DNA from: Clostridia bacterium
GTDB lineage: Bacteria > Bacillota > Clostridia > Christensenellales > Aristaeellaceae
Reading direction: 5' to 3'
Length of the DNA stretch: 38,731 nucleotides
NCBI GenBank assembly: GCA_017550745.1
Contig: JAFZOG010000071.1
Location: 1-38,731, forward strand
The notes below the pieces were generated by a model, which saw only the letters and a list, made by a program, of their open reading frames with translations, was not told the DNA's origin and searched no databases. Shown piece by piece: positions 2,892 through 38,731 of the stretch (position 1 is the stretch's first letter; the number at the start of each line of letters is the position of its first letter). A program made the position numbers and the translations under genes.

Positions 2892-2932
2892 GTAAACGGT
2901 CAGATGAATTGATGGCATTTCGTAAAGTGATG

Positions 2933-2941: not shown

Positions 2942-2963
2942 TGTGTCAGAAAGGAGGATGGGC

Positions 2964-3625: not shown

Positions 3626-3654
3626 AAAAAAGCGGGCGCCGATGCGGCGCCCGC
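3626..3654 (-). terminator. Terminator for the MATE gene
   Basis: Read on the minus strand, the left copy of the GC-rich palindrome (3632-3654) is followed directly by six T (complement of 3626-3631). It can terminate transcripts from the MATE gene that ends at 3834. The right copy (3791-3813) lies nearer to that gene but has no T tract on either strand. Confidence 0.7.
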
Positions 3655-3813: not shown

Positions 3814-3833
3814 AAATCATTTGATACTGTGCG

Positions 3834-5282: not shown

Positions 5283-5323
5283 GAGTCAGTGTTTCTCCTT
5301 TGCTTCCAGTAAAATACACACAA

Positions 5324-5352
5324 ATTGTATCACACGACATGATAGATAACAA
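5324..5352 (-). promoter_or_regulatory. Promoter of the MATE gene
   Basis: On the minus strand TTGTTA (complement of 5347-5352), a 17-base spacer and TACAAT (complement of 5324-5329) preceded by TGA, giving the extended -10 TGATACAAT. The same extended -10 recurs before the peptidoglycan-binding-repeat gene (9642-9650). Confidence 0.6.
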
Positions 5353-5404
5353 TCCCATTTTTAAGTGTTCTTCTCCAAATCAATCATATTCATTCATAAA
5401 AGCC

Positions 5405-5433
5405 TTGCGTTCCGGCCGGGTTTGCCTTATCAT
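5405..5433 (+). promoter_or_regulatory. Possible promoter of the secreted phosphatase gene
   Basis: TTGCGT at 5405-5410, a 17-base spacer and TATCAT at 5428-5433, about 33 bases before the start codon at 5466. The match is moderate. Confidence 0.4.
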
Positions 5434-5465
5434 ATGGTATAGAAAAGAAACGGAGGGTTTTGAAA

Positions 5466-6611
5466 ATGAAGAAGCCGCTTTCTGCGCTCCTCGCCTTCTG
5501 CCTGGCCCTGAGCATCGCAATGCCTGTCCTGTCAGAAGCCGGGGTCCCGATCACCGTGACGGGCATTCAGAAATACGGCAACCTGGAGCTTTCCGTCACC
5601 GGCACCGAGTTTCTTGCCATGGGTTATGACTACGGCGACATCGTCACGGTGACCATCAACGGCCAGGAGATGGATATGCCCGTGGGGTCAAACTATTCCG
5701 ATGTAGACCAGGGCAGCATGATCTGCCGCGTGGTGGTCAAGCCCGACACCAACGAGGATTACCTGATCCTGGCAATCAACATGGGGGACCTGGCCACTGC
5801 CGTCCTGATTGCCGAAAAGGAAAAAATCGAAGCCGATCCCGGCTATGTGTGGAACTACAAGGTAGATCAGCCCGTGCCGGTAGGCTTTGCCATGAAGGAA
5901 AAGGGCGGTTATTACGATCAGTGGGTGATGCATCAGCTGGTGCGCAGCGAAAAACGCGAAGATTATCCGGATCTGTCCGATATGGAATTTGCCAACTTCC
6001 GCGTGATCGCCACCACCGGTATGGGAGAAGGCAAGCTGTACCGTTCCTCTTCTCCCGTGAATCCTGAAATCAACCGAAATCATGAAGCCGATGCCGCCGC
6101 CGCGGACGCCGGTGTGCGCACCTTCATCAATCTGGCTGACAATGACGAAACCATGAAAAACTATGAAGGCTATGCCGATTCCTATTACGCGGGGCAGAAC
6201 ATCATCGCCCTGAACCTGGGCATCGACTTCTCAGCGGATGATTTCAAAGAGGGGTTAAAGGAAGGCTTCCGCTTCATCGCCGCCAACGAAGCGCCTTATC
6301 TGTTGCACTGCAACGAGGGCAAGGACCGCGTAGGCTTTGCTGCCGCCGTGCTGGAAGCGCTGGTGGGCGCGACCGCCGAGGAAATCATCGCTGACTATAT
6401 GGTGACTTATTATAACTTTTACGGCGTGCAGCCCGGCACCGTGCAGTACGACGTCATCAGCGCCAGCAACATTCAAAAGAGCCTGGCCGCCGCGTTTGAA
6501 ATGGATTCCATCTTTGACGGCGATTTGCAGGCCGCCGCGGTCAAATATCTTTCGGATATCGGCCTGAGCGCCGAGGAAATCGCCGCTGTGCAGGCAAATC
6601 TGGGGCAGTAA
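5466..6611 (+). CDS. Secreted tyrosine-phosphatase-like protein with SAM-hydrolase-C-like N-domain
   Basis: Predicted exported protein of 381 residues. Residues 1-25 are a signal peptide. Residues 28-125 resemble the small C-terminal beta-barrel domain of the SAM hydroxide adenosyltransferase (DUF62, fluorinase-like) family: ITVTGIQKYGNLEL, GDIVTVTINGQ, PVGSNYSDVDQG and ILAINMGDLA. The catalytic N-terminal domain of that family is absent. Residues 175-381 form a cysteine phosphatase domain with P-loop HCNEGKDR (C282, R288, the CX5R signature) and upstream YRSSSP and FINLADN motifs typical of bacterial PTP-like enzymes. The ATG at 5466 is chosen over the TTG at 5460 because GGAGGG sits 8 bases before it. 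The substrate could be a phosphoprotein, a phosphoinositide or phytate-like compound. The phosphatase call is good; the N-domain match is by eye. Confidence 0.8.
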   Translation: MKKPLSALLAFCLALSIAMPVLSEAGVPITVTGIQKYGNLELSVTGTEFLAMGYDYGDIVTVTINGQEMDMPVGSNYSDVDQGSMICRVVVKPDTNEDYLILAINMGDLATAVLIAEKEKIEADPGYVWNYKVDQPVPVGFAMKEKGGYYDQWVMHQLVRSEKREDYPDLSDMEFANFRVIATTGMGEGKLYRSSSPVNPEINRNHEADAAAADAGVRTFINLADNDETMKNYEGYADSYYAGQNIIALNLGIDFSADDFKEGLKEGFRFIAANEAPYLLHCNEGKDRVGFAAAVLEALVGATAEEIIADYMVTYYNFYGVQPGTVQYDVISASNIQKSLAAAFEMDSIFDGDLQAAAVKYLSDIGLSAEEIAAVQANLGQ

Positions 6612-7820: not shown

Positions 7821-9578
7821 TCAATACTTGGTCCAATCCACGACCTGCTGCATCACCACGAAGGTAGCGGGGCCGGCGATGCCGTCCACAGAGGTGATGG
7901 GCGTCGTGCTGTTGTAATTCTTGTAATCCCACTGGAACTGGCGCACAGCGGCCCAGGTCAGGGTGCCATAAATGCCGTCGATGTTGCCGTAGTAATAACC
8001 CATATCCCGCAGGGCGTTCTGCAGCTTCTTGACGTCGTTGCCATGAGAGCCGATGCGCAGCGTGCGGTTGAAGCCGCCCACATACGTGGTATTGTTCGTC
8101 ACATGGGTCTGCTCGGCGCCCCAGCTGCTCAGTTCGGTATTGATCGCCACCCAGGTCTTGGGGCCGACAATGCCGTCCACCTTCAGGCCGTACAAAGCGC
8201 TGTAATCCCGCTGGAACCGCTTCACAGCGGCCTTGGTGAGGGCGCCGTAGATGCCGTCCGCATTACCGGTCATGTAACCGGAGCCCAGCAGCTTCATCTG
8301 GATGGCCTTCACGTCTTCGCCGTAGGAGCCCACCTTCAGCGTGCGTCCCACATAGGGATCGTCAGGCGTCCCTTCGAAGCTCTGCTCGATGGCTTCCTCG
8401 ATCTCAACGACGGTGGGCCACAGATAACGGCGCATGGTGCTGTCATAAATGCCGGTCACCTTTAGGCCGTTCTTCTGCTGGAACCTCTTCACCGCAGAGA
8501 CGGTGGAATCGTCGAAATAGCCTTCCTCGTACCAGTTGTCGAACGTATAGTTCAGGTTGATCAGCTTATCCTGCAGGATTTTCACGTCCCAGCCGCGGGA
8601 GCCCTTGCTCAGCTCGCGGGAGGGAATACCGCCGTTAAAGATGATGCCGTTGCGGTTATACAGGGCGTCAAACGTACGGGGGCCAACCTTGCCGTCTACG
8701 CTCAGGCCGTTGGAAGCCTGGAAAGCCTTCACGGCGTTCTGCACCGCGGTGCCGAAGATGCCGTCAATGGTGCCGCTGTAGTAGTAGGTGTTCCGAAGCT
8801 GACGCTGCAATTCCTTCACATCTTCGCCGCTCATGCCGATACTGAGGGTGGCGATATTGTAATCAGGATAGTCGGCCTTGATCACGGAATCGGAATACAT
8901 CAGCATCCGGGTGTTGTAGCCGATCTTGCCGTCCACGGTGATTTCGTTCTTCGCCTGCATCTGCTTGACGGCATAAACCATGGAGTCGTTGTATTCCCCG
9001 TCCAGTTCGCCCAGATAATAGCCCAGCTGCGCCAGGCGCTTCTGCGCGGTGAGCACTTCCTCGCCCTTCATGCCCTTTTCCAGGGTGAAGGTGTTCGGAG
9101 GCGCCGTGACCTTGGCTTCGGAACCGAAAAGAACGGCACGGGTAGAAGGGCCGACCACGCCGTCCACAGCCAGGGCGGGCTGATCAGGATTGTAACTGTT
9201 CCAATCCGTCTGGAAAAGCCGCACGGCATAAGCCAGGGATTCGTTGAATTCGCTGTTCAGCAATCCCTGATAATACCCCAGGGCCTGGAGCTTTTGCTGC
9301 ACCAGCAGCACGTCGCTGCCGGTCATGCCCTGCCTCAGCGTGCGCGTCACAACCGCAGGCGCGGGAGTCGACGTAGGAAAGATATAACCCGTCGTCTTCG
9401 GATTATAGGTAGGCAGCGGCCTGGACGTAGGATCAGGCGCCGTGGTAGGGGTGACGACGGGCGGCGTATAAGGGGGACTGGTCGGCTCATCGTCAAATGA
9501 AACGACCGGGATATCCGCAAAAGCGGCGGTCGGAATCACAAGCGCCAGAATCAGGAACCAAACTAAAAAACGTTTCAT
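7821..9578 (-). CDS. Secreted protein with six peptidoglycan-binding repeats
   Basis: Exported protein of 585 residues. It has a signal peptide (residues 1-21), a Pro/Thr-rich linker (about 27-75), then six tandem PG_binding_1 modules of 70-85 residues, ending at the C-terminus. Each begins with a motif like TLRxGxxGxDVxxLQ, continues with GYYxGxxDGxxG, AVxxFQ, and ends near VDGxxGPxT. The fourth is the most divergent, with a Tyr/Trp-rich insert and VTGIYDST at its end. There is no catalytic domain such as an amidase, peptidase or transpeptidase, so it probably coats or cross-links the wall, or acts as a cortex or septum scaffold. Asn and Tyr content is high, as in exported proteins. The Shine-Dalgarno AAGGAG lies before the ATG. 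Confidence 0.9.
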   Translation of the reverse strand: MKRFLVWFLILALVIPTAAFADIPVVSFDDEPTSPPYTPPVVTPTTAPDPTSRPLPTYNPKTTGYIFPTSTPAPAVVTRTLRQGMTGSDVLLVQQKLQALGYYQGLLNSEFNESLAYAVRLFQTDWNSYNPDQPALAVDGVVGPSTRAVLFGSEAKVTAPPNTFTLEKGMKGEEVLTAQKRLAQLGYYLGELDGEYNDSMVYAVKQMQAKNEITVDGKIGYNTRMLMYSDSVIKADYPDYNIATLSIGMSGEDVKELQRQLRNTYYYSGTIDGIFGTAVQNAVKAFQASNGLSVDGKVGPRTFDALYNRNGIIFNGGIPSRELSKGSRGWDVKILQDKLINLNYTFDNWYEEGYFDDSTVSAVKRFQQKNGLKVTGIYDSTMRRYLWPTVVEIEEAIEQSFEGTPDDPYVGRTLKVGSYGEDVKAIQMKLLGSGYMTGNADGIYGALTKAAVKRFQRDYSALYGLKVDGIVGPKTWVAINTELSSWGAEQTHVTNNTTYVGGFNRTLRIGSHGNDVKKLQNALRDMGYYYGNIDGIYGTLTWAAVRQFQWDYKNYNSTTPITSVDGIAGPATFVVMQQVVDWTKY

Positions 9579-9641
9579 ATGGAAAAACTCCTTCCTCTCT
9601 GAGTAAACAGAAGCTCAGTCTGGATTTTCACATCCGCACAT

Positions 9642-9650
9642 ATTGTATCA
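9642..9650 (-). promoter_or_regulatory. Extended -10 element before the peptidoglycan-binding-repeat gene
   Basis: The minus strand reads TGATACAAT (complement of 9642-9650), identical to the extended -10 of the MATE promoter. The -35 region (TAGGAA) is poor. It lies about 65 bases before the ATG at 9578. Confidence 0.4.
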
Positions 9651-9802
9651 CAAACATGATGAAATTCCTATTCCAGAAATGTTTCAAAATGCAGAATTTA
9701 CATGTAACATATGTAAACAACGCATCACGAGAACGAAAAGGAAAGATAAAGAATCCATGTAGAAACAGGCAAGAAATGTTTGCTGCCTTTCCTTATTCCG
9801 GT

Positions 9803-9821
9803 AAAAAGACCGCGTTTCGCG
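9803..9821 (-). terminator. Weak terminator after the asparaginase gene
   Basis: A short CGCG-AAA-CGCG hairpin (9811-9821) is followed on the minus strand by GTCTTTTT, directly downstream of the stop codon at 9830. The stem is short, so this is tentative. Confidence 0.4.
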
Positions 9822-9829
9822 CAACTTCG

Positions 9830-10750
9830 CTAATCCACTGCCTTCAGCTTTTTTTCATCTGCCGCCCGGATTGCGCCGTCAGAAGCATTTTCTACCATAT
9901 ATAATGCCGCCGCTGTCCCGCTGCCCGCCGCGAACGGGAATACGGGCAGGGTAGTGGCCGCGCCGATCGCGCCGTCGGGCGACAGGGCGATCAGGCTGAT
10001 GCTGCCGCTTTCCTCCTCAAGCTCCTTTTTCCGCGCGGACAGGGCGTCCAGGGCTTTCCTGCACGCTTCATGCGGTGACATGCCCCGGCGCATTTCCGCC
10101 ACCGCCTCGTAGGAAAGGCAGCCGCGCATAATGTCTTCGCCCAGGCCGGTGGCCGCCGCCGCCCCGAAACGCGCGTCGCAGTAAAACCCGGAACCGACCA
10201 GCGGCGTGTCTCCCACCCGCCCGGGCTCCTTCATGAAAAGCCCGGATGTGGACGTGCCCGCCGCCATATTTCCGCTGTCATCCAAGGCCAGCACACATAC
10301 GGTATCATGTCCCCTATAGGCTTCCCATGCGGCGTCCGGCTGCGCCGCGACAGCTTCCCGCCAGCGATTCATGCTTTCCACGGTGCGCATATCCCGTAAA
10401 GGCAGTCCCGCGCGGATCGCGAATTCCTCCGCTCCCCGCCCCGCCAGGAGGCAGTTTGTCTTTCGCCCGCACAAACGGTAGGCGGCAAGAATGGGATTTT
10501 GGATGTTTTCCACGCTCATCACGCCGCCCACGCGCAGGGTTCGCCCATCCATGAATGCGGCGTCCAGCGTCACATGCCCGTCCTTTCCGGGCAGACCGCC
10601 ATATCCTACAGAGCGGAACAGCGGCTCATCCTCCACCCGCTTTACGGCGTGTACAACCGCTTCACCGGCGCAGACGCCGTCCTTCAGCATCCGAAGGCCT
10701 TCTTCCACGCCAGCAAAGCTCATTTTCCAGGTACCGATGATCGCGCGCAT
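9830..10750 (-). CDS. Ntn-hydrolase, glycosylasparaginase/isoaspartyl peptidase family
   Basis: N-terminal-nucleophile amidohydrolase of 306 residues. Family members cleave themselves before a threonine and hydrolyse N4-(GlcNAc)-asparagine or isoaspartyl bonds. The predicted cleavage and nucleophile is T150 in GHDTVCVLALDDSGNMAAGTSTSG; the segment after it, with GDTPLVGSGFYCD and a GxGE-type motif (ATGLGEDIMR), is the conserved beta-subunit core. There is no signal peptide, so it is cytoplasmic. The cutC-like gene lies just upstream with a gap of 2 bases, and the two share the promoter at 11535-11563. Glycosylasparaginase (aspartylglucosaminidase) is favoured by length and by the IGTWKMSF N-terminus; plant-type asparaginase is the alternative. 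Confidence 0.85.
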   Translation of the reverse strand: MRAIIGTWKMSFAGVEEGLRMLKDGVCAGEAVVHAVKRVEDEPLFRSVGYGGLPGKDGHVTLDAAFMDGRTLRVGGVMSVENIQNPILAAYRLCGRKTNCLLAGRGAEEFAIRAGLPLRDMRTVESMNRWREAVAAQPDAAWEAYRGHDTVCVLALDDSGNMAAGTSTSGLFMKEPGRVGDTPLVGSGFYCDARFGAAAATGLGEDIMRGCLSYEAVAEMRRGMSPHEACRKALDALSARKKELEEESGSISLIALSPDGAIGAATTLPVFPFAAGSGTAAALYMVENASDGAIRAADEKKLKAVD

Positions 10751-25375: not shown

Positions 25376-26167
25376 TCAGAGTTTTTGTTCCCGTCCTAAG
25401 AAACGGAAGGCTTCCTCCAGATGCGCGTCCCAATAGATGTAATCATGGCCGCCGGGGCCGTTTACGGTTTGGTGAACAACGTGATACTGCTCCATCCAAG
25501 CGTCGAAGTGTTTGCAGGCGTCCCGTACCAGAATATCTTCCTCCCCGCAGCACATCCAGATGGGCGGGATAGGTTTTCCTGCCTCCTTCGCGGCTTCAAT
25601 GGCGCGAAAAGCGTTCAGGCGGGGAGAAGTCATGTAAGCATCCATGCCGCCGATCACTTCCGTGAACATGGAAGCGGGGATAGCTCCCGGAATATCCGGC
25701 TGGTGCAGCAGCAGGGAATCAGCCTCCACCGCAGGAGAGAACAGGAGGATTTTGGAATACAGTTCTTCATAGTGCAGCCCCAGCACGGCAGCCCCATAAC
25801 CGCCCATGGAGATCCCGGCGATAAAGGTGTCTTCCCGTTTATGGGACAGGCAGGGGAACAGCTTCCGGGTGATTTCCAGCAGTTCCTTCCCGGCGTATTG
25901 GCCCATGCTGGCGGCCCGCTCCGGGTGGTCGGTATAGAACAGGTTTTCCCCGTCCGGCACCACAACGGCGATACCGTATTTGGCTGCCATCTGGCGGAGG
26001 GGCAGGGCGAAGATGATTTCCTCCCCGTTGCAGGAAAAACCCGGCAGGAAGTACAGGGTGGGATAGGGCCGCTCGACGTCCGGCGCGCCGTCATGGTACG
26101 GGAGGATGACATGGAAATCCACGCCTCGCATGAGGGACTGGGATTTGGCCGTTGCTTTCAGATACAT
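25376..26167 (-). CDS. Esterase family alpha/beta-hydrolase, paralogue 3
   Basis: Cytoplasmic esterase of 263 residues without signal peptide, related to tributyrin esterase/esterase D-like carbohydrate esterases (often called acetyl or feruloyl esterases). Catalytic Ser is S120 in AGISMGGYG; the Asp is probably in CCGEEDILV and the His in GPGGHDYIYW. The oxyanion region is LYFLPGFSCNGEE. It is closest to the paralogue just upstream (both begin with a PYPxLYFLPG strand, have DTFI.GISMGGYG and PDGEN/ADGEN). The start codon directly follows the upstream stop (TGAATG), with AGGAGG in the upstream gene. Its likely role is removing ester groups from imported oligosaccharides. Confidence 0.9.
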   Translation of the reverse strand: MYLKATAKSQSLMRGVDFHVILPYHDGAPDVERPYPTLYFLPGFSCNGEEIIFALPLRQMAAKYGIAVVVPDGENLFYTDHPERAASMGQYAGKELLEITRKLFPCLSHKREDTFIAGISMGGYGAAVLGLHYEELYSKILLFSPAVEADSLLLHQPDIPGAIPASMFTEVIGGMDAYMTSPRLNAFRAIEAAKEAGKPIPPIWMCCGEEDILVRDACKHFDAWMEQYHVVHQTVNGPGGHDYIYWDAHLEEAFRFLGREQKL

Positions 26168-26950
26168 TCAGGCATCCTCCTTTCCCGTCAGGAAGCGGAA
26201 GGCAGGGAGCAGGGCCTGCTTCCAGAAAGTGTGATCGTGGCCGCCCGCCGCCTCATACCAGGTCAAGGGCTTATGCAGAAGCTCCATGCGGGCGGCAAAT
26301 TCTTTCGCCGGCTGGATCAGGGGGTCGGACTGCCCGCAGGCTAAAAACATCTCCGGACAGTTTTCCGGGGCCTTGGCCGCTTCCGCCGCGGCGTGCAGAT
26401 AATCCCGGTAGCTCCCGGCGTATTCCGCCCAGGTGCCTAATGTGGCAATCAGTTCGCCTTTGGGGGACGGACAATCCGGCCGGGGATTTTCGTCCGGGGT
26501 CTTAAAGCCCAGGGCTGGGGAGAGCATGACGATTTTGGAAAAGGTCTCAGGGAAGCGCAGGCCGTTGATCAACGCGCCGTAGCCGCCCATGGATATCCCG
26601 CCGATGAAGGTATCCTCCCGCCGATGGGACAGAGGCAGCACCGAACGGGTGACCTGCACCAGCTCTTCCCCCACATAACGGCTGAACAGCGCGCCCCGCT
26701 GTTCATCGTCCGTATAGAAGGAGTTTTCCCCGTCCGCCAGCACCACGGCCACGCCGAAACGCATGGCGAACAAGGCGAAATTGCTGAACATGGCCGTTTC
26801 CAGCCCGCCGCCGGAATAGCCCGGCAGGAAATACAGGGCAGGGTACGGCGGCTCCACGTCCCGCCACAGGTTCAGATCCGGCAGGAATACCACCGGATAA
26901 ACGCTGCGGGAAATGCAGTCCGAGCGAAAGTTCATATGCAGATAGGCCAT
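26168..26950 (-). CDS. Esterase family alpha/beta-hydrolase, paralogue 2
   Basis: Esterase of 260 residues, no signal peptide. Nucleophile S120 in GGISMGGYG; likely acid in LACGQSDPLI and histidine in GGHDHTFWK. The N-terminus has PPYPALYFLPGYSGGGLE. The middle cap differs from the third paralogue, with a Pro-rich stretch (FKTPDENPRPDCPSPKGE). GGAGG lies 5 bases before the ATG. It is joined end to end with the next esterase gene and separated by about 120 bases from the first paralogue upstream. Substrate is inferred from context to be an acylated sugar. Confidence 0.9.
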   Translation of the reverse strand: MAYLHMNFRSDCISRSVYPVVFLPDLNLWRDVEPPYPALYFLPGYSGGGLETAMFSNFALFAMRFGVAVVLADGENSFYTDDEQRGALFSRYVGEELVQVTRSVLPLSHRREDTFIGGISMGGYGALINGLRFPETFSKIVMLSPALGFKTPDENPRPDCPSPKGELIATLGTWAEYAGSYRDYLHAAAEAAKAPENCPEMFLACGQSDPLIQPAKEFAARMELLHKPLTWYEAAGGHDHTFWKQALLPAFRFLTGKEDA

Positions 26951-27073
26951 TTTTGCCTCCTTCTGTAGTGTTCAAGGCGTTCCGCGCCAGGGCAGGCTCA
27001 CCGGTATAAACGCGCAAGGGCCCTTCAAGCCACAGTTAAAACCGAGGCAGCCATGAAGAGCCCGGCCTCGCGT

Positions 27074-27895
27074 CTATTCTCCATGATCCGCCGCCTTGCT
27101 TTCTTCTCCTTTCAGCCATTCCAGACCCTTGGGCAGGGCATAATTCCAGAAATCGAAATTATGCACGCCGGGATGGGTGAGCCATTCATGTTCGACGCCC
27201 TGGACGGTCAAATAATTGTGCATGTCCAAATTGTTGGGATAGAGGAAATCCTCGGTGCCGCAGGCCAGGAAGATACGGGGCAGGGTCTCCCCCGCTTCCT
27301 TTTTCTTCTTTGCCAGGGCCTTTGGGTCTCTGTCGCTGCCCAGGAGGGCGGCAGGCGCGCCGAAGGTATTCACATAGTATTCATACGGGGCCATGAAGTT
27401 GCCCGTGCCGGGCTTCATCTGCGCCACCTCGTCGGTGATCAGGGCAGAGGACAGGGCGATGACCGCGCTGAACACATCGTTGAAATACAGGCCGTTGCGC
27501 AGCGCGCCGAAGCCACCCATGGACAAGCCGCCGATGAAGGTATCTTCCCGCTTATGGGACAGGGGGAACAGCCGCCGGGTCACGTCCACCAGTTCCCTGC
27601 CGATAAAATCAGCGTAGCCCTCGCTGCTGTTGGTATTGTTCAGGTAGAAGCTGTTATCCCCTTCGGGCATCACGACGGCGATGCGGTGCAAGCCCGAAAG
27701 CTCCATTACATGGCCGTTGTACAGCCAGTCCATATGATTGCCGGAAAAACCGTGAAGCAGGTACAGGGTCGGGAAAGGGCCGTCGATGTAACCCACTTTT
27801 CCGTCCGCCTGAAATACTTCTGTAGGAATGGCAGCGGAAAAAGATACGCTCCGCTTCCGTACCACGGAATAATACTGCCCGGTAAAAACCGCCAT
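27074..27895 (-). CDS. Esterase family alpha/beta-hydrolase, paralogue 1
   Basis: Esterase of 273 residues. Nucleophile S125 in GGLSMGGFG; LLHGFSGNHMDW is a more canonical oxyanion motif than in the other two; the acid is probably in LACGTEDFLYPNN and the histidine in GVHNFDFW. It begins with a strand VRKRSVSFSAAIPTE that resembles tributyrin esterase EstA. The start at 27895 follows AAAGGAG by 6 bases; the frame runs further up to 27943 without support. It is the most divergent of the three tandem copies and the first to be transcribed. Confidence 0.9.
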   Translation of the reverse strand: MAVFTGQYYSVVRKRSVSFSAAIPTEVFQADGKVGYIDGPFPTLYLLHGFSGNHMDWLYNGHVMELSGLHRIAVVMPEGDNSFYLNNTNSSEGYADFIGRELVDVTRRLFPLSHKREDTFIGGLSMGGFGALRNGLYFNDVFSAVIALSSALITDEVAQMKPGTGNFMAPYEYYVNTFGAPAALLGSDRDPKALAKKKKEAGETLPRIFLACGTEDFLYPNNLDMHNYLTVQGVEHEWLTHPGVHNFDFWNYALPKGLEWLKGEESKAADHGE

Positions 27896-27952
27896 AAAGT
27901 ACTCCTTTCCTTGCAAAACGCAGCAAACCGCAATATCTGCCAAAATGGAAAC

Positions 27953-28961: not shown

Positions 28962-29858
28962 TCAGCCTTTCACCGCCCCCAGCACGACGCCCTTGATGAA
29001 GTACTTCTGCACGAAGGGGAAGATGATGACCACGGGCAGCATCCCGATCACGGCCATGGCCATGCGCACGGAGGTGCCGGGGAGGTCCACTTGCTGGGTG
29101 CCCAACAGCGCGGCGTTGCTGCTGCTCTTTAGGAACTGGATGTTGTTCATGATACGGATCAGCAGGTTCTGGATGCCGAACAGGGTCGGGTCGGTGATGT
29201 AATAGAGGCCGTTGACCCAGTCGTTCCAGTATGCCAGGCCGGAGAACAGCGCCACCGTGGCAATCACCGGGATGGACAGCGGCAGCATGATTTTCAGGAA
29301 GATCACAAACTCGTTGCCGCCGTCGATCTGGGCGGATTCGATGAGGGCTTCGGGAATGCCGGTGGCATAGTAATTCCGCACCAGGAACACATTGAAGGCC
29401 GTCACCAGGTAATTAGGCACGATCAGCGCCCAGATGGTGTTGCGGATGGAGATGATGCGGCTCCACATGATGTAGCTGGCCACCACGCCGCCGTTGAACA
29501 GCATGGTGAAGAACACGAAGAAGGACATGATGTTGCGGTACTTGAAGCTGCTGCGCGCCATGGGATAGGCCAGCATGGTGGTGAACAGCACGCCGCCCAG
29601 GGTGCCCAGCACGGTGGTCAGGATGGTGATGCCGTAGGAGCGCAGGATCATACTGCCCTGGCGCACCATATAGTAATAGGAATCGGTGCTCAGCTTGGAC
29701 GGGAAGAAGGTGTAGCCGTTGGCCAGCAGCGTCTTTTCATCCGTGACGGAAGCGATGACAATCAGCAGGATAGGCAGCAGCGCGATGATGGCCAGCACCG
29801 TCAGCACAACGGTGCAGAACAGGCGGAAGCGCCTGGAATCGGAATAATTCTGATCCAT
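28962..29858 (-). CDS. Carbohydrate ABC transporter permease, LplC/YtcP type
   Basis: Inner-membrane permease of 298 residues with six membrane segments, CUT1 family. The EAA loop that contacts the ATPase is in PEALIESAQIDGGNEFVIFLKIMLPLSIPV. N-terminal SDSRRFRLFCTVVLTVLAIIALLPILLIVIASVTDE and the ending KYFIKGVVLGAVKG are characteristic of the LplC/YtcP subgroup. It is 15 bases downstream of its partner permease and uses GGAAGGGGTG as Shine-Dalgarno. No ATPase gene is in the window. Confidence 0.93.
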   Translation of the reverse strand: MDQNYSDSRRFRLFCTVVLTVLAIIALLPILLIVIASVTDEKTLLANGYTFFPSKLSTDSYYYMVRQGSMILRSYGITILTTVLGTLGGVLFTTMLAYPMARSSFKYRNIMSFFVFFTMLFNGGVVASYIMWSRIISIRNTIWALIVPNYLVTAFNVFLVRNYYATGIPEALIESAQIDGGNEFVIFLKIMLPLSIPVIATVALFSGLAYWNDWVNGLYYITDPTLFGIQNLLIRIMNNIQFLKSSSNAALLGTQQVDLPGTSVRMAMAVIGMLPVVIIFPFVQKYFIKGVVLGAVKG

Positions 29859-31142: not shown

Positions 31143-32627
31143 TTACTTTCCCTGCGCTGCCAGCCAGTCGTCCAACTGGGCCTGCTTGGCGGCGATGATG
31201 TCGCCCAGGCCGGCGTCGTTCAGGCGCTGGAGGAAGATTGGGATTTCGGTTTCGGGGTCAACAGCGCCGCACATGAGGCCGGCCAGGTACTGCTCGATCA
31301 CGTTGCTGACGGCGGTGTACTGGGTCTTGACCCGCTTGTTGTCGAAGGTGAAACCCATGGCTGCGGAGGTTTCGGCGTTCCTGTTCTGCTCCTGCTCCCA
31401 GACCAGGGAATCGGGATCGGTGCCCTCCATGGGATACATGAGGAAGAAGTTGCCGAAGGTGCCGCAGGAAAGCTGGGCGGTATAAGGTACGCTGGCGGCT
31501 TCCAGACCGTCGGGATAGCGCACGGTGCCGTCGTCGTTCTTCACATAGTCGCGTCCTTCGATGCCGTAGATCACCAGGTTGATGATGTCTTTATCGCAGA
31601 AGGTCAGGTTCAGCAGCTTCAGTGCGGCGTCCGGCACCTTGGAAGTGGAGGACACCATCCAGCTCAGGGCGTTCACGGCGCTGGTATCCAGGAACGCGCT
31701 GCCTACGATCTTCGCGCCCAGCTTGTAGCCGCCGCATTGGGCTTCCAGGGAAGCGGCGGTATCGGCTTCGGGATAGCTGTAGGAGGCGATGTAGCAGAAG
31801 TAATTGCCGCTGCTCATGAGTTCGGCGGCGGTGGAGGAGGTGGTGGCGGCGTCCTTCATCACCAGGCCCTCGTTGTACCAGGTGCGGGCCAGTTCGCAGG
31901 TGCTCTTAAAGATGTCGGAGGCGTAGTAGTCCACCACGGTCAGTTCGCCGTTCATCAGCATGCCCTTGGGGGAATAGTAGTCGTCGGACAGGTAGTCCAC
32001 ATGGGGGATGGTCAGGTTCAGGCCGATGTTGCCGCCGTTCACTGCGGCCAGGGGGGTCAAGTCAGGCTTGGCTTCCTTGACCTTGCGGAAGATGTCGGTC
32101 AGGTCGTTGACGGAGGACACGGCGCTCATGTCCAGGCCCAGTTCATCCGCGATGTCCTGGCGGTACACCACCATGGGGGTGAGGGCGATGGGCTTGAGGG
32201 TCGGGATGCCATAGATGCGTCCCTTGTTGCTGCACGCTTCCAGCCAGTCCTGGCCCACCAGCTCGCAGGCTTCGGGGGCGTCGGCAGCCAGCATGTCGGT
32301 CAGGTCGCGGGCCATGCCTGTGCTGACGCAGTTATTGAAATCGCCTAAGCTCTGGAACAGGTCGACCTGGTCGCCGCCCTGGAGCATCAGGCTCACCTGG
32401 GAGGAGTAGTCCCAAATCACGATGGGCATCAGCTTCACTTCCACGCCGATCTTGGCGCGGGTGATCGCATTGATGGCTTCTTCCACCACGGCCAAGTCTT
32501 CGGCGGTGGGGATGTTGTTAAAGGTGGCATAGGAAAGCACGACTTTATCGTAGCTTTCCGCAGAAGCGGTACACGCGATGCCGCATACCATCAGCAGCAC
32601 CAGCAAGAGAGACAACGCTTTCTTCAT
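31143..32627 (-). CDS. Extracellular solute-binding protein of a carbohydrate ABC transporter
   Basis: Exported binding protein of 494 residues. A signal peptide ends near ACTASAES; the Cys in GIAC could be a weak lipobox, so either lipid anchoring or plain secretion is possible. The mature protein is of the LplA/YtcQ-like family 1 solute-binding type: VVLSYATFNNIPTAEDLAVVEEAIN with IGVEVKLMPI, a central GRIYGIPTL, and a hinge and C-terminal lobe with many aromatic residues. The start at 32627 follows GGAGGAAG. It is the first gene of the transport locus and is separated from the permeases by a terminator. Ligand is unknown; oligosaccharides of plant or host glycans fit the downstream esterases. 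Confidence 0.92.
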   Translation of the reverse strand: MKKALSLLLVLLMVCGIACTASAESYDKVVLSYATFNNIPTAEDLAVVEEAINAITRAKIGVEVKLMPIVIWDYSSQVSLMLQGGDQVDLFQSLGDFNNCVSTGMARDLTDMLAADAPEACELVGQDWLEACSNKGRIYGIPTLKPIALTPMVVYRQDIADELGLDMSAVSSVNDLTDIFRKVKEAKPDLTPLAAVNGGNIGLNLTIPHVDYLSDDYYSPKGMLMNGELTVVDYYASDIFKSTCELARTWYNEGLVMKDAATTSSTAAELMSSGNYFCYIASYSYPEADTAASLEAQCGGYKLGAKIVGSAFLDTSAVNALSWMVSSTSKVPDAALKLLNLTFCDKDIINLVIYGIEGRDYVKNDDGTVRYPDGLEAASVPYTAQLSCGTFGNFFLMYPMEGTDPDSLVWEQEQNRNAETSAAMGFTFDNKRVKTQYTAVSNVIEQYLAGLMCGAVDPETEIPIFLQRLNDAGLGDIIAAKQAQLDDWLAAQGK

Positions 32628-33012
32628 CTTTTCTTCCTCCTGTGCGTCCATATCGGGATGGACAATTCTTTGTATTAGGATACCATTTTGTCCGCAGCCA
32701 TGCTTTATTTTTTAACGTCTATCTTTTTGATTTTGAAAACACCCCCTTGCTTTCTTCTGTTGATCCTTTTCTCTGACGCGGATAAACCGGAGGAGTTACT
32801 CAAATGGATGACGTGGCAGTTTCACCGCGCAGTGTACGAAAAACACTGGAATGCGTTTGCTTAGCACAGGGCAGGAAAAACGCATCTCCTGTATCCCCTG
32901 GCCGCGCACCGGTCATGTATATAGCTGCTTCAGTGAATCTGAAGGCAATCTGGTGATGGCCAAATCATTGAAGGAGGATCGGTGGAAATCGCTGACTTGT
33001 TCTTCACACGGT
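32628..33012. other. Intergenic region upstream of the solute-binding protein
   Basis: This region must carry the promoter of the transport locus on the minus strand, but no convincing -35/-10 pair or catabolite (cre) site was found. A perfect 11-bp inverted repeat, GCTTCAGTGAA (32927-32937) and TTCACTGAAGC (33012-33022), flanks 74 bases and overlaps the stop codon of the PAS-HD gene. On the plus strand a 29-codon open stretch (32775-32864) reads like the tail of a protein (EELLKWMTWQFHRAVYEKHW) and may be debris of a lost gene. Confidence 0.45.
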
Positions 33013-34302
33013 TCACTGAAGCGCTTTATAAGCCTCGCTGTCCATAAAAAGATGCAGGATTTCTCCGTCTATCTTGCCTTTTCCTGCCATTTCGCTTAAT
33101 ACTTTATATGCCTGGTCTATGGAATAAGGTTTTTTATATGGCCGGTCCTTTGCCGTCAATGCCTCGAAAATATCAAGGATTGTTAGAAGTCTCACTTCTT
33201 TGCTTATCTCAGGCGCTTTCAGATGTTGAGGGTAGCCACTGGCATCCAGGAATTCATGATGGCTGGCAGCCCATATCGGAACAGCATGATATCCCTCCGG
33301 AAAGCCAACTTCATTCAGGATGCGTCCCGTGACTAATGCATGGCTCTGAATCAGCTTCCTTTCTTCCTCAGTCAGGGTGCCTTTGCGGATATGCAGGCAC
33401 GCGATTTCCACTTCTGTCAGAAGCGGTTTTCTTTCCCCGGCTTCATCGATCCAGGTTTCTTTTTCAAGCATTTCGATAAATGCCTCATCCTCCGGAGAGA
33501 ATGTGACGCCGGAATCAATCCTTATGAGAAATCCCAGTATCTTCGCAAGCCGCTCATCGCGCTCTTTCCATTCTGTTTCACTGATCGTTCCTTCCAGTAA
33601 AGCGACGCGGTTTAAAAGCCGGATTTTGTCGATGCGGTCTCTGATCGCGGGAAGGCTTGCCCCGAAACGGGTTGCCTTATTCAGCACATTCAGCGGTATT
33701 GCAAGCTTTCCAATGTCATGCAGCCAGACGGTCATTAAAAAGGCGTGCTCCTGCTCCTCACTAAACTTCCAGGCGTTACCTGACCGATTCAGCCAAGCAA
33801 AAAATGCCCGCGCCATATTTACCATATTTTTCGTATGGTTGGATGAATAATGGGATCTCTCGTCAACGGCCTTTGAAAAAGCCCTGACCAGGGAATCCAA
33901 CAGATCAGATACCTGCTGCGCATGCCGTATTTTCAGTTCCGCCAGTTCGGTGATATCCGCTAAAACAACGATGACCCCAATACGCTTCTGTTCATTTGTG
34001 AGATATGAAGTGATAATCCGGATCTGCCGGATTTCATTGCCATTATTGTATGGAACCAGATTTTGCTGCAAAGTTTTATGATAAACCGCGTCGATGACAG
34101 CCTGATTGAAAGCGTCGTTTTCCTCATTCTTCAGGAAAATGGAAGCGAAGCTTTTCCCGATCATATTCTGCGCGCTTTGACAAAAGATGCTCTCAGCAGC
34201 CGGATTAATATACTGGATGATACCGTCAAAGCTGACGGTCATCACCCCTTCCGACATGTCTTGGATAATATTATCTTTCATCAAACTTCCTGAATCGTAC
34301 AT
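33013..34302 (-). CDS. PAS domain and HD-GYP-like protein with long insert
   Basis: Soluble signalling protein of 429 residues. Residues 8-120 form a PAS domain (MSEGVMTVSFDGIIQYINPAAESIF with IVVLADITE at its end). The HD domain follows: H151 (YSSNHT region), H195-D196 in LHDIGKLAIP, H348-H349-E350 in HHEFLDASGYP. This is the HD-GYP signature with one Gly replaced by Ala, so cyclic-di-nucleotide phosphodiesterase activity is possible. Between HDIGKLAIP and RKGTLTEEERKLIQSH there is an insert of about 95 residues, not found in standard HD-GYP. It is the last gene of the partner-switching operon, 20 bases after the second STAS gene. An alternative start at M8 (34281) cannot be ruled out. Confidence 0.88.
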   Translation of the reverse strand: MYDSGSLMKDNIIQDMSEGVMTVSFDGIIQYINPAAESIFCQSAQNMIGKSFASIFLKNEENDAFNQAVIDAVYHKTLQQNLVPYNNGNEIRQIRIITSYLTNEQKRIGVIVVLADITELAELKIRHAQQVSDLLDSLVRAFSKAVDERSHYSSNHTKNMVNMARAFFAWLNRSGNAWKFSEEQEHAFLMTVWLHDIGKLAIPLNVLNKATRFGASLPAIRDRIDKIRLLNRVALLEGTISETEWKERDERLAKILGFLIRIDSGVTFSPEDEAFIEMLEKETWIDEAGERKPLLTEVEIACLHIRKGTLTEEERKLIQSHALVTGRILNEVGFPEGYHAVPIWAASHHEFLDASGYPQHLKAPEISKEVRLLTILDIFEALTAKDRPYKKPYSIDQAYKVLSEMAGKGKIDGEILHLFMDSEAYKALQ

Positions 34303-34322
34303 ATGTCCTCCAGGCTTATTCT

Positions 34323-34622
34323 TTACAGGAGCGTTAATACCTTGGACAAACCGGTTACATCAAACACTTCCCTGATATCCGGCCGAACATGATAAATCAG
34401 AAGATTCCCGCCGACTTTATTCATCAGGTTTTTCGCGGCATATAAAACCCTCAGGCCCGCGGAAGAAATATATACCAGCTTATCCAGGTCAAACACAATT
34501 TCCGTGATGCCGTCCAGAGACGTTCTGAGCAGTGCTTCGAGCTGGGGCGTTGTGACTGCGTTCAGGCTTCCTTCCAGCGTGATCCGTAAAGCTTTGTCTA
34601 TTCGGCTTTCCGTGATTATCAT
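34323..34622 (-). CDS. STAS-domain anti-sigma-factor antagonist, second copy
   Basis: SpoIIAA/RsbV-like protein of 99 residues that would bind and sequester an anti-sigma-type kinase when unphosphorylated. The phosphorylation site is a Ser in VYISSAGLRVL. Preceding strand EIVFDLDKL and the C-terminal VFDVTGLSKVLTLL are typical. It lies 28 bases after the SpoIIE-fusion gene and is about half identical by eye to the STAS protein at 36923-37219, so the pair arose by duplication. Confidence 0.92.
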   Translation of the reverse strand: MIITESRIDKALRITLEGSLNAVTTPQLEALLRTSLDGITEIVFDLDKLVYISSAGLRVLYAAKNLMNKVGGNLLIYHVRPDIREVFDVTGLSKVLTLL

Positions 34623-34650
34623 ATCCCTGATTCCTTCCTTTCGGAATACA

Positions 34651-36921
34651 TCAAATGAACTGTTTTTTGACAGTCAGTATATTATGTCCATCCACCCTTT
34701 CATAGCTGACGTCATCCATCGCGTTTTTCACCATATAAATGCCGAAGCCGCCATGCTGCCGGTCTTCCACGCCCATGCCCAGGTCGGGATCGGGCTTTTG
34801 CAGGGGATCATAGGGAACCCCTGCGTCGATCATAGTGACTGTGACAGAGTGCTGACGGATTTCTGTTTTGACCCAAATTTTCCCATCCCGGACTTCTGGC
34901 GGATAGGCGTAGGAAGCAATATTGACGAAGATTTCCTCCACCGCCATGCCGACCTGCTTTTTCTCCTTTTTCCCGCAGCCCGCCGTGTCCAGCTGATCTT
35001 CCACAAAGGAAAGCGCATTGTACAGCTGTTCGGTCTTTGCATCGAATTCTTTTTCTTTGATGCAGGCCATGGCTGTATGCTCCTTCCCGGCGTAATACAG
35101 GCATACCTGGGTGATGTCGTCAAACTGCGGCTCCCCCTCGGCGAAGCCGTCTATGCTCCGCCGCACGGTTTCACAGATCTTTTGGCAGGCGGCGTCCCCG
35201 GCACCGTAATCTTCGGAAAGCAGCGCCAGCAGCCTGTCGTTTCCAAACATTTTACCGCCGGAAGCGGTGGCTTCCGTCACCCCGTCCGTATAGAGATACA
35301 GGATGTCCCCGGGCTCCAGCTGCAGCTGCTGCTCCCGGTAGCGCACCCCTTCCATCATGGCCATCACCAGGTTCGCTTTCTGCTGGATGAAGGACGCCTT
35401 GCCGTTGCGGATCAGCACCGGCGCGTTATGGCCCGCGTTGATGAAGCGCACCAGGCCGGTATCGGTGTCCAGGAAGCCCATCCAGGCCGTCAGGAACATT
35501 TGGGCGTCGTTGCCTTCGCAGAGCTTGGCGTTGGCATGGATGAACACGTCGCAGGGCGCGTCGCCCCGCTCCGCGTAATCCCGCAGCACGGTTTTGGAGG
35601 TCATCATGAACATGGCGGCGGGGATGCCTTTGCCGGATACGTCGGCGATCAGGAACGCCAGCCGGTTTTCGTCCAGCAGGTAGAAATCATAGAAATCGCC
35701 GCCCACCTCTTTGGCTGTGTGCATGGCGGCGAAAAGGGAAAAGTCGGTACGGTCCGGGTAAGGGGGAAAGACGGAGGGCAGTGCGGATTCCTGAATACTC
35801 TTGGCAAAGGCCAGCTCCTCGTCGATCCGGGCGGCAGCCGCGGCAATATAGTGCTTGAGGGTGTCTACAGTAGAATTGATGTCGTCGGAAAGGTCGGAGA
35901 ACTCCGCGTTGGAGCGCACGTTCACCACCTCGTCCAGATCGCCCGCCGTGATCCGGGACAGGGAGGAATTGACCCTGCCTAAATTATCCAGTACCAATCT
36001 TTTGACCAACAGGAAAATGACCGTAAACAGCACGATGAACAGCAGAATCTCCATGATGCCCATGACCCGCAGGGAGGAATCCCGCTCAAGGATGATCTCG
36101 TTTTCCGGCAGTACGGAGACGATATAATAGCCCTCGGCAAAGATATACACGCAGGAGCAGGCTTCGCCATAGACCCGGGCATGGAACACCTCGTTCTCCG
36201 GCATGGTAGCCCGGTCGATAAAGACGCCGGTTTCCGTTAAGTTTTTTCCCGCAAGCCCATAGCGGTCGCTGACAATATTCCAGTCCTCATTGGCGATGAT
36301 CACGCAGCCGGTGGAGCCCACATGGCGGTTTCTCGCCGCGTTGATCACGTATTGGTCAATGTCCCGCTGGAAGCGTTCCCCGTCGTAGCCCACCTGCACA
36401 AAGCCGCCCGCTTTCAAGGCAACAGCGGCGTATTTGCGGAAAAGGGCGGGATCACGAGACGTGGGCTGATAGGTCTGCACATGCTCGCTTTCCGTGCCTT
36501 CCAGCAGGGGAAGGAACTCCGCGGACTGCGCGCCGTTTCGCATATCGTAGTTCATGAACTCTTCCAGGGTGCTGGAAATGATGATGCCGCCCGCGTCAAT
36601 GAGATTGATCTCCGCCACGTCGTAGGCGGCCAGCATGCTTTCCAGGCCGGAGAGGTCGGTAGGCGCTCCGCTGTTGATATCCTCCGCGACCCTGCGCGTC
36701 AGCTTCAGCAGGTTTTCATCGGAAGCGTCGATGACATCCTGCCGCACGTCCTCCACGTTGAGATGGAGCAGGCTGTCCGCCCAGGTTTGGGACAGATTGG
36801 TCTGGTGGATCCAGGTGAAGGCCATGGACGAAAGAAAAGCTACCGCCACGATCAACAGCAGCCATCTGAAAAAGGCGCTGGAAATGGTGATCCTTCGCTT
36901 TCCCTGTTTTGCCGCGATCAT
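34651..36921 (-). CDS. Membrane sensor / SpoIIE phosphatase / HATPase fusion
   Basis: Signalling protein of 756 residues. A membrane span at 19-38, an extracytoplasmic Cache-like sensor to about 285, a second span at 288-308, a HAMP domain (about 309-360), a PP2C SpoIIE domain (about 370-610) with the metal Asp residues D409 in GGDFYDF and D427 in IADVSGKG and the closing FDDITQV, and a C-terminal HATPase (about 630-756) like RsbW/SpoIIAB: AVEEIFVNIASYAYP (N box), MIDAGVPYDP (G1) and GGFGIYMVKN (G2). One chain thus holds both the phosphatase and the kinase of a partner-switching circuit. It starts 1 base after the upstream STAS gene and precedes another STAS gene, so both substrates are encoded next to it. 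Confidence 0.92.
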   Translation of the reverse strand: MIAAKQGKRRITISSAFFRWLLLIVAVAFLSSMAFTWIHQTNLSQTWADSLLHLNVEDVRQDVIDASDENLLKLTRRVAEDINSGAPTDLSGLESMLAAYDVAEINLIDAGGIIISSTLEEFMNYDMRNGAQSAEFLPLLEGTESEHVQTYQPTSRDPALFRKYAAVALKAGGFVQVGYDGERFQRDIDQYVINAARNRHVGSTGCVIIANEDWNIVSDRYGLAGKNLTETGVFIDRATMPENEVFHARVYGEACSCVYIFAEGYYIVSVLPENEIILERDSSLRVMGIMEILLFIVLFTVIFLLVKRLVLDNLGRVNSSLSRITAGDLDEVVNVRSNAEFSDLSDDINSTVDTLKHYIAAAAARIDEELAFAKSIQESALPSVFPPYPDRTDFSLFAAMHTAKEVGGDFYDFYLLDENRLAFLIADVSGKGIPAAMFMMTSKTVLRDYAERGDAPCDVFIHANAKLCEGNDAQMFLTAWMGFLDTDTGLVRFINAGHNAPVLIRNGKASFIQQKANLVMAMMEGVRYREQQLQLEPGDILYLYTDGVTEATASGGKMFGNDRLLALLSEDYGAGDAACQKICETVRRSIDGFAEGEPQFDDITQVCLYYAGKEHTAMACIKEKEFDAKTEQLYNALSFVEDQLDTAGCGKKEKKQVGMAVEEIFVNIASYAYPPEVRDGKIWVKTEIRQHSVTVTMIDAGVPYDPLQKPDPDLGMGVEDRQHGGFGIYMVKNAMDDVSYERVDGHNILTVKKQFI

Positions 36922-36922
36922 T

Positions 36923-37219
36923 TTATTCGATCTCCATGATGTCGGTAAGCCCGGTCACGTCGAATACTTCCATTACATCCGGCTGGGTGTGGATGATCTT
37001 CATACGGCCCTGACGGTTCATCACCTTTTGCGCTACGGAAAGCACCCGCAGCCCCGCGGAGGTGATATAGGACAGGTTTTCAAAATCAAAGACCAATTCC
37101 GCCACGCCGTCGATGGACGTGCGCAGCTCTTTTTCCAGCTGCTGGGAAGTGATGGTATCCAGCCGCCCGTCCAGTGCGAATGTCAGTTTATTTCCCTCTC
37201 TGTTTTTCGTGATTTCCAT
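36923..37219 (-). CDS. STAS-domain anti-sigma-factor antagonist, first copy
   Basis: RsbV/SpoIIAA-like protein of 98 residues. Phosphorylatable Ser lies in SYITSAGLRVLSVAQ; strand AELVFDFENL and C-terminal EVFDVTGLTDIMEIE complete the STAS fold. AAGGAG lies 6 bases before the ATG. It follows the NHLP-type exporter gene by 84 bases and touches the SpoIIE-fusion gene (1-base gap). No sigma factor gene is visible, so its final target, sigma factor or the exporter itself, is open. Confidence 0.93.
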   Translation of the reverse strand: MEITKNREGNKLTFALDGRLDTITSQQLEKELRTSIDGVAELVFDFENLSYITSAGLRVLSVAQKVMNRQGRMKIIHTQPDVMEVFDVTGLTDIMEIE

Positions 37220-37303
37220 GCTCGTCTCCTTATCCTTTCAGATTCCGTATAAGCGTTTTATATTGCTTTCCCGGAAAGGGATGTCCCTCAGAAACTTCTC
37301 GCG

Positions 37304-38731
37304 TCACGCGCTTTGATCCAGCCGCTGCCGGGCCACCAGCTCAGCGAAAAAGCCGTTTTTTTCGATCAATTCTTCATAGGTGCCGTCCTCGATGATGTGC
37401 CCGCCGTCCAGCACGATGATCCGGTCGCACTGCCGGATGGTGGAAAGCCGGTGGGCGATGACGATGCGGGTGCATTTCATCTTGTCCAATGCTTCCGATA
37501 CCTGCTTCTGGGTCACATTGTCCAGGGCAGAGGTGGCTTCGTCAAACATGAGGATACGGGGCTTGGGGGCAACGGCCCGGGCGATCATCAGCCGCTGGCG
37601 CTGCCCGCCGGAAATGCCGCCCTGCCCTTCGGAGATCAGGGTGTTCATGCCCATGGGCATGGCGCGGATGTCCTCGGCAAAGCCCGCGATTTCCACCGCT
37701 TCCCAGGCGTCATTCAACGAAAGCCACGGGGCGGAGATGGTGATATTGGAGAATATATCCCCCATGAACAGCCTGCCGTCCTGCATCACCGTGCCGATGC
37801 GCCGGCGCAGGGATTTGGGATCCAGGGTTTTCAGGTCCCGCCCGTCAAAGAACACCGCGCCTTTCTGGGGCTGCTCAAAGCCCAGCAGGATGCGCATGAG
37901 GGTGGATTTGCCGCATCCCGTTTTCCCCACGATGGCCACGTACTGGCCGGGCCGGATTTTCAGGCTCAGGTTATCCAGAATCAGGGGCATATCCTCCCGG
38001 TAGCGGAAGGAAACGTTATTCAATTCCACCCCGCCGGACAGCCGCGTTACCATGGCTTTGCTCTCGTCGATCTCCGGCACCGTTTCCATGATGGGTTTTA
38101 CCATTTCCAGGATGGGGCGAATCTGCGCCACAGACGTGGCGATCCCCGCCAGGGCCATGAACGCGCCGCTGACCGTGCCGTAGGCGGAATTAAAGGCGTA
38201 ATACTGGGAAACGGACACGCCGCTGTTCACCGCCGCATAGTAGAGCGCCATGGTGCCGATGAGGGAAATGGCCATGCTGATGACCCCGCTCATTTTCAGG
38301 AACATAGGCGGATTGTAGGTCAGCGCGGCATTTTGGGAATAAACCCGGCCCCAGCGGGCGAACATGCGCTTTTCCGCGCCTGCCAGCCGGATCTTCTGGA
38401 TGCCGGTGATCAGCGCGTGGGTGAGGCCGCTTTCCTTGGCGGCCAGCTTCATCTGCTGCCGGGAGATACTCACCTGGAGCAGCATCGTCGCCGTAGAAAC
38501 GGCAACTGTCAGCAGCGTCATCAGCAGGGCGGGCACCACCAGGGCGGGGGCATAGATGAAGATCTGCGAAATGTAGGCCAGGGAAAACAGGCTGGTCAGG
38601 CCCGTGGACAGCGCCATATTCACCAGCTGGTTCGCCAGGGAATTCATGTATCCCACGCGGCTGGATAGCTCGCCGGTGTTATACTGCTTGAAAAACGCCA
38701 CCGGCAGGGACAGGACGCGCATCATGCTGGC
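37304..38731 (-). CDS. NHLP/NHLM-type bacteriocin export ABC transporter, permease-ATPase (partial)
   Basis: C-terminal 475 residues of a fused membrane/ATPase half-transporter; the frame is open to the right edge, so the N-terminus lies outside. The membrane part has LPVAFFKQYNTGELSSRVGYMNSL and ISQIFIYAPALVVPALL; the ATPase has Walker A GKTGCGKST, signature ISGGQRQR, Walker B ILMFDEATSALDN and H-loop IAHRLST. These wordings match the NHLM-system ABC subunit without peptidase domain, used to export peptides with nitrile-hydratase-like leaders. The peptidase-ABC partner, HlyD-type protein and precursor are not in the window and would be expected to the right. Downstream genes are a partner-switching set in the same orientation. 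Confidence 0.85.
   Translation of the reverse strand, partial: ASMMRVLSLPVAFFKQYNTGELSSRVGYMNSLANQLVNMALSTGLTSLFSLAYISQIFIYAPALVVPALLMTLLTVAVSTATMLLQVSISRQQMKLAAKESGLTHALITGIQKIRLAGAEKRMFARWGRVYSQNAALTYNPPMFLKMSGVISMAISLIGTMALYYAAVNSGVSVSQYYAFNSAYGTVSGAFMALAGIATSVAQIRPILEMVKPIMETVPEIDESKAMVTRLSGGVELNNVSFRYREDMPLILDNLSLKIRPGQYVAIVGKTGCGKSTLMRILLGFEQPQKGAVFFDGRDLKTLDPKSLRRRIGTVMQDGRLFMGDIFSNITISAPWLSLNDAWEAVEIAGFAEDIRAMPMGMNTLISEGQGGISGGQRQRLMIARAVAPKPRILMFDEATSALDNVTQKQVSEALDKMKCTRIVIAHRLSTIRQCDRIIVLDGGHIIEDGTYEELIEKNGFFAELVARQRLDQSA

Follow-up and report, generated by a model that had tools for sequence, protein, structure and literature searches.

A partner-switching module, consisting of a membrane sensor with phosphatase and kinase domains and a small STAS protein, was found beside an NHLM-type peptide exporter gene in the genome of a Clostridia bacterium, and it probably controls the peptide production and export cassette to which this gene belongs. 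The stretch under study, here called the window, is the entire contig C109 (38,731 bases) of a draft genome of 3.75 Mb in 186 contigs; among named organisms, uncultured gut clostridia are closest to it. At its right end five genes share the minus strand (Table 1), which are, from right to left, an ABC exporter fragment, STAS 1, a sensor-SpoIIE-HATPase fusion, STAS 2, and a PAS-HD-GYP protein. An earlier reading of the letters alone (the sequence-only reading) had reported this row together with its short gaps, and both were confirmed; the five genes are presumably co-transcribed. The proposed control of the cassette is based on the tight same-strand spacing, the intact motifs, a recurrent and scattered linkage, operon-like gene orders in relatives, and precedents for STAS proteins. 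The arrangement represents a recurrent association of known parts that is undescribed in the literature searched.

NHLM-type exporter and partner-switching parts in the window

The exporter fragment scored 600 bits against the NHLM permease/ATPase (ABC2) model TIGR03797 over model positions 216-685 of 686, compared with 345 bits for the next-best HlyB-type model, 328 for NHLM ABC1 and 278 for MsbA. General drug ABC exporters, a better match to which would have spoken against the sequence-only reading, were thus ruled out, and the NHLM identity was borne out. The fragment lies below the full-length cut-off of 709.4 bits because the first 215 model positions are missing at the contig end, and the full-length homologue in G014, the closest relative and a genome of the same genus, reached 732.7 bits. 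Walker A, ISGGQ and AHR motifs were present; the Walker B pattern as written had no match in the exporter, where the local sequence is ILMFDEA. The terminal bases of the window are identical to those of C138, another contig of the same genome, and inward of this shared end the two contigs were about 85-93% alike per 150 bases throughout the exporter. The right edge therefore looks like an assembly fork, at which two cassette copies or the alleles of two strains would share one upstream node. When contigs that could continue upstream were sought, the matches were limited to C109 itself, C138 and a 79% stretch of C164, and no further contig shared this end. Since the upstream genes of the window are unreadable at the fork, relatives stand in for them below.

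All parts of a partner switch were present, namely a PPM phosphatase, an RsbW-like kinase, and STAS proteins with a phosphosite serine. STAS 1 is of the anti-sigma-factor-antagonist type (63.3 bits against TIGR00377, cut-off 53.45) and shared 83-86% identity with the STAS proteins of C138 and G014. The sensor retained four PPM motifs, and its kinase domain showed the N box EIFVN together with the G1 and G2 boxes; its HAMP domain scored 23.0, just below the Pfam cut-off of 25. No sensory fold could be named in its N-terminal part, where the sole Pfam match at E<=1 was RDD (0.82). The protein is predicted to be anchored in the membrane and would respond to a signal from outside the cell. It was ruled out as the sporulation protein SpoIIE, with 32 bits against the TIGR02865 cut-off of 490.8. 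A serine occupied the phosphosite column, which we take to be the phosphorylated position of SpoIIAA, in both STAS proteins of the window and in 67 of 67 aligned STAS proteins; both proteins of the window may be phosphorylated.

Related cassettes and recurrence of the linkage

The gene order in G014 was precursor, short HlyD-like protein, precursor, ABC1, ABC2, a 90-residue double-glycine precursor, STAS and SpoIIE-HATPase. C138 carried ABC2, an 89-residue double-glycine precursor, STAS and SpoIIE-HATPase, followed by a histidine kinase, a response regulator, two Nif11-like precursors whose cores are rich in cysteine, and the first part of a maturase, which closely resembles a radical SAM/SPASM protein encoded by contig C161 of the same genome. 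On C161 itself (positions 1-6594, locus L074), this maturase and nine open frames matching Nif11-like precursors by BLAST lie behind a response regulator and a histidine kinase. Between exporter and STAS, where C138 and G014 hold the small precursor gene, the window copy has a short spacer and no such gene. As the window and G014 exporters are sisters on the exporter tree and C138 falls outside them, loss of the precursor gene from the window copy would be simpler than gain.

Several other relatives combined the same parts in different orders: STAS, SpoIIE, HATPase, HlyD, ABC1, ABC2 in G021; Nif11-like peptide, SpoIIE, STAS, HlyD, ABC1, ABC2 in G010; STAS, HlyD, ABC1, ABC2, two double-glycine peptides, SpoIIE in G281; and Nif11-like peptide, SpoIIE, STAS, HATPase, HlyD, ABC1, with no ABC2 there, in L078 (G020:C78). 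In L078 the SpoIIE gene (8187-9974) is split into two open frames, which were left unmerged. A Lachnoclostridium metagenome-assembled genome (MAG) showed STAS-MATE-SpoIIE-HlyD-ABC1-ABC2, and an Oscillospiraceae MAG the same with one additional gene before SpoIIE. ABC1-ABC2 pairs occurred in most other loci, and the window itself ends before any ABC1.

The sequence-only reading had placed a peptidase-ABC subunit, a HlyD-type protein and NHLP-leader precursors beyond the right edge. In relatives the first was indeed found (931.4 bits for the G014 ABC1 against TIGR03796, cut-off 853.3), as were precursors, but the HlyD-like proteins were short (69-229 residues in 27 family-level loci), and the one tested, from G021, fell far below the TIGR03794 cut-off, covering the first 61 of 421 positions with 29.7 bits against 156.2. 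The precursors likewise differed from the expected type and, in C138 and G014, were not confined to the region beyond the exporter. Judged by their sequences, the precursors of related cassettes are Nif11-like or short double-glycine peptides: a C138 precursor with a VAGG site scored 33.2 bits against the Nif11 leader model TIGR03798 (cut-off 32.3), and the three others of the four tested scored 23.4-30.1. Matches to this model above cut-off were present in 5 of the 60 genomes of the set, which comprised the own genome and 59 relatives. The NHLP leader (TIGR03793) was found in none of the 60 genomes and in none of 10 chosen genomes, with no control genome matched in either search.

Conservation of the linkage in related genomes, whose lack would have told against the sequence-only reading, was examined in the same set. 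At least 33 NHLM ABC2 loci were identified in 21 genomes, counted from best matches with at most 15 candidates scored per genome, so that some exporters may be missed. This number derives from 34 strong ABC2 rows (>=449 bits) minus G014:C149, which has a long branch of 2.78 and apparently belongs to an unrelated lineage; the linked locus G020:C78, with ABC1 and no ABC2, stands outside the 33. SpoIIE loci numbered 68 in 27 genomes, excluding HATPase-only rows, second pieces of one gene and rows weaker than about 1e-36. A SpoIIE gene lay within 10 kb of 8 of the 33 NHLM loci, compared with 0.66 expected from density (5e-7 under a Poisson test that ignores shared ancestry), and the linkage accordingly recurs.

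In a tree of 59 ABC2 proteins from 60 exporter-gene loci (L078, lacking ABC2, was left out), the 17 linked rows, five of which (L094, L095, L122, L131, L152) had been found via the SpoIIE search and are hence biased, required 12 changes, at least five of them forced by well-supported branches. When the labels were shuffled 500 times, the mean was 15.1 changes, and as few as in the real tree sufficed in 15 of the shuffles. The linkage label is thus somewhat clustered on the exporter tree and not of single origin. A wider draw of 291 genomes of the class (ABC2 cut-off 1e-170, three candidates scored per genome) yielded an ABC2 match in at least 16 genomes, the own one included. Among 20 regions from the other 15 genomes, a STAS gene was near the exporter in four (a raw count), and one of these (L182) also had SpoIIE. 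Furthermore, a search with the sensor alignment, from which 80 named loci were kept of 584 confirmed, gave an NHLM exporter in the same five loci named above.

Similar modules also occurred beside other peptide-related genes. Among 69 SpoIIE-type proteins, including contig-end pieces and one split gene, 28 had a neighbour of one of four kinds at a distance of up to 8 kb: an NHLM exporter for 10, a condensation domain for 4, an AMP-binding gene for 3 and a MATE exporter for 14, of which three appear under NHLM as well. MATE genes are common, and their figure is a raw count. SpoIIE genes were found within 10 kb of 6 of 25 condensation-domain loci versus 0.38 expected, a figure that still contains shared ancestry; the BLAST marker flagged four, and positions gave six, with L205 and L218 missed by the marker. 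The loci in which a SpoIIE-type gene lies close to a condensation domain of a non-ribosomal peptide synthetase are L196, L090, L028, L237, L218 and L205. In L033, L035, L039, L041, L122 and L131 a MATE exporter gene lies close to STAS genes, SpoIIE genes or both, and some of these loci also encode an LPG-synthase-like protein (PF09924 in L035) or a 199-residue protein without Pfam match. In L036 (10899-12077) one protein combines a STAS domain with an APH-type phosphotransferase domain in a single chain (PF01740 and PF01636, tested in this locus only), and BLAST relatives of the fusion recur near SpoIIE genes in L101, L104, L111 and L116.

Table 1 Features of the window (positions in contig C109).
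Feature	Position	Strand	Match or remark
Five-gene row	33013-38731	-	gaps of 84, 1, 28 and 20 bases, right to left
NHLM-type ABC exporter permease/ATPase (ABC2), C-terminal 475 codons	37304-38731	-	TIGR03797; 5' part lost at contig end
End identical to contig C138	38591-38731		141 bases, exact comparison
Spacer between exporter and STAS 1, 84 bases	37220-37303	-	about 450 bases with 89/90-residue double-glycine precursor gene in C138 and G014
STAS protein 1, 98 residues	36923-37219	-	PF01740, 2.6e-13
Membrane sensor, HAMP + SpoIIE/PPM phosphatase + RsbW-like HATPase, 756 residues	34651-36921	-	PF00672, PF07228, PF13581
SpoIIE/PPM phosphatase domain, residues 417-608	35098-35673	-	PF07228, 4.5e-49
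HATPase_c_2 kinase domain, residues 626-753	34663-35046	-	PF13581, 9.3e-24
STAS protein 2, 99 residues	34323-34622	-	PF01740, 1e-13
PAS + HD-GYP protein, 429 residues	33013-34302	-	PF00989, 2.3e-10; PF13487, 5e-30
Solute-binding protein	31143-32651	-	leftward neighbour of the row
Uptake permease	28962-29858		left of the row
Three consecutive putative-esterase genes	25376-27943		PF00756 each
Protein with six peptidoglycan-binding stretches	7821-9578		PF01471

Stretches resembling AG-rich Shine-Dalgarno sequences, judged by eye, precede STAS 1, STAS 2 and the HD-GYP gene. Between 32640 and 37400, promoter-like matches (5 versus a mean of 4.4) and terminator-like matches (8 versus a mean of 5.7) were near chance. 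The remaining genes in Table 1 were recorded to the left of the row.

Possible outputs of the module

Several points weigh against control of the cassette by the module. No output partner of the module was identified, the draft genome carries 7.45% contamination, and the PAS-HD-GYP protein is not conserved, since 58 of the 59 relatives lack a match to it at E 1e-20. For 25 of the 33 NHLM loci, the C164 cassette of the own genome among them, the same contig showed no SpoIIE gene at a distance of up to 10 kb; 11 of these 25 sit on contigs shorter than 10 kb, so that some cannot be judged. The shared ancestry left aside by the Poisson test adds to this, and 41 of the 69 SpoIIE-type proteins have none of the neighbours considered above, so that these modules are general devices, perhaps present here for unrelated reasons. 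Taken to its end, this line of thought would make partner-switching modules simply common and their proximity to NHLM exporters functionally meaningless, in keeping with the 68 strong SpoIIE loci across 27 of 60 genomes and with the absence of an NHLM exporter from the fetched flanks of 75 of the 80 kept sensor-search loci. Such coincidence is quite unlikely in view of the 12-fold excess over density, the repeated and separate origins of the linkage on the exporter tree, and the interleaving of the module with precursor genes on one strand.

A different output is suggested by the left half of the row. STAS 2 shares 49% identity with STAS 1 and is separated by merely 20 bases from the PAS-HD-GYP gene, whose product is likely a cyclic-dinucleotide phosphodiesterase, judging from its HDIGK (188) and HHEFLDASGYP (341) motifs, about 150 residues apart, and from the closest solved structure by sequence, the 3'3'-cGAMP phosphodiesterase 5z7c (2.3e-15). 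If STAS 2 switched this enzyme as the real output, the exporter would be a mere upstream neighbour. An order of STAS, SpoIIE and HD-GYP also exists in an Aeromonadales MAG (L154), the only one of the 80 kept loci with an HD-GYP marker beside SpoIIE; the combination is therefore not unique, though it lies outside the core. This explanation is nevertheless unlikely, as HD-GYP was confined to the window genome and one partial match of 40% among the 59 relatives, in G023, to a protein that resembles GAF-HD-GYP by eye, and C138 and G014 keep STAS 1, sensor and exporter without it. STAS 2 and the PAS-HD-GYP protein were absent from the C138 and G014 stretches read, and the pair was not seen at any other NHLM cassette read. 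The HD-GYP part, which the sequence-only reading had counted into the operon, was thus dropped as a core part.

The sequence-only reading had further supposed that the module perhaps works without a sigma factor. No sigma gene was found in the window operon by open reading frame, Pfam and NCBIfam reading, but the genome encodes SigG on C87 and a SigB/F/G-like factor on C131, and an ECF sigma gene lay within 5 kb of the NHLM exporter gene in 9 of the 60 loci (L030, L053, L084, L179, L181, L185, L186, L189 and L190). SigBFG matches above cut-off in 50 of the 60 genomes say little, because the own-genome match is SigG. The C131 factor (5055-6164, L193) lies next to a gene for a weak RsbW-like protein, and the 11 kb read there contain no STAS gene; scattered STAS proteins may share this factor as a target. 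An unlinked sigma factor, either this one or an ECF type, freed by the STAS proteins and transcribing the cassette, is accordingly a reasonable possibility, if short of probable. Set against it are the low scores of the pair (19 bits for the RsbW-like neighbour versus the Pfam cut-off of 27.4, and a sigma score below all family cut-offs bar that of the ECF superfamily), the operon without a sigma gene, and a C131 link that depends merely on the absence of another partner.

Sigma-free outputs of STAS relays do have precedent by analogy. According to PMC8457831 and PMC5085249, SiaC activates the cyclase SiaD unless SiaB phosphorylates it, and HsbD and BgrR are each modulated by a STAS protein, HsbA and BgrV, respectively. 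The boldest version for the present system, in which the relay would act directly on the exporter or precursor, kinase and phosphatase would gate export post-translationally, and gut clostridia would repeatedly have equipped Nif11/NHLM clusters and peptide-synthetase clusters with such a gate, is very unlikely.

Control of the cassette by the module, by whichever output, remains the favoured reading and may be pictured as follows. A membrane-anchored partner-switching module built into a double-glycine/Nif11-type peptide export operon would read an extracellular signal through its sensor, which would shift the balance between the sensor's own phosphatase and kinase domains. How far STAS 1, the relay that is conserved beside the exporter, is phosphorylated would depend on this balance, and unphosphorylated STAS would act on a partner encoded elsewhere, bringing precursor production and export into line with the signal. 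The window copy would have gained STAS 2 and the PAS-HD-GYP protein, most likely to connect its sensor with a cyclic dinucleotide as well, and would have lost the precursor gene that lies between exporter and STAS in C138 and G014. If true, partner switching would extend to peptide export, and a regulatory handle on the peptide clusters of gut and rumen clostridia would become available; modules that sense the surroundings and switch clusters on would also hint at how to wake these clusters in the laboratory.

Comparison with known systems

No description of the exporter-partner-switching linkage appeared among the literature matches listed, which comprised open-licence papers only and are therefore weak evidence. 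The words sigma, SpoIIE and phosphatase were absent, by word search, from the main text of Haft 2010 (PMC2887384), which defines the NHLM/NHLP exporter families, and sigma, SpoIIE, STAS, NHLP, NHLM and Nif11 were all absent from the main text of a rumen bacteriocin survey (PMC13289728). With the NHLM/NHLP export system, the cassettes described here share the ABC1 peptidase-permease, ABC2 and adjacent Nif11-like precursors, but they differ by the short HlyD-like protein, by the lack of an NHLP leader in the control-less search, and by the added partner-switching genes.

The phosphatase, kinase and STAS protein with their motifs are shared with the RsbU-RsbW-RsbV and SpoIIE-SpoIIAB-SpoIIAA systems, whereas here phosphatase and kinase are fused to a membrane sensor in an operon without a sigma gene. 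The PPM domain also matched the Rv1364c-type structure 3ke6 (4.9e-09). Rv1364c is a phosphatase-kinase fusion like the window sensor; in the present case, however, the STAS protein is encoded by a separate gene, the sensor is transmembrane, and the context is peptide export. The best NCBIfam match of the sensor was SiaA, with 70 bits far below the cut-off of 700. In the SiaABCD, HsbA-HsbD and BgrV-BgrR systems of Pseudomonas and Sinorhizobium, a STAS or STAS-like protein modulates an enzyme that makes cyclic di-GMP, whereas in the window the neighbouring enzyme is an HD-GYP protein rather than a diguanylate cyclase, and a peptide exporter is present.

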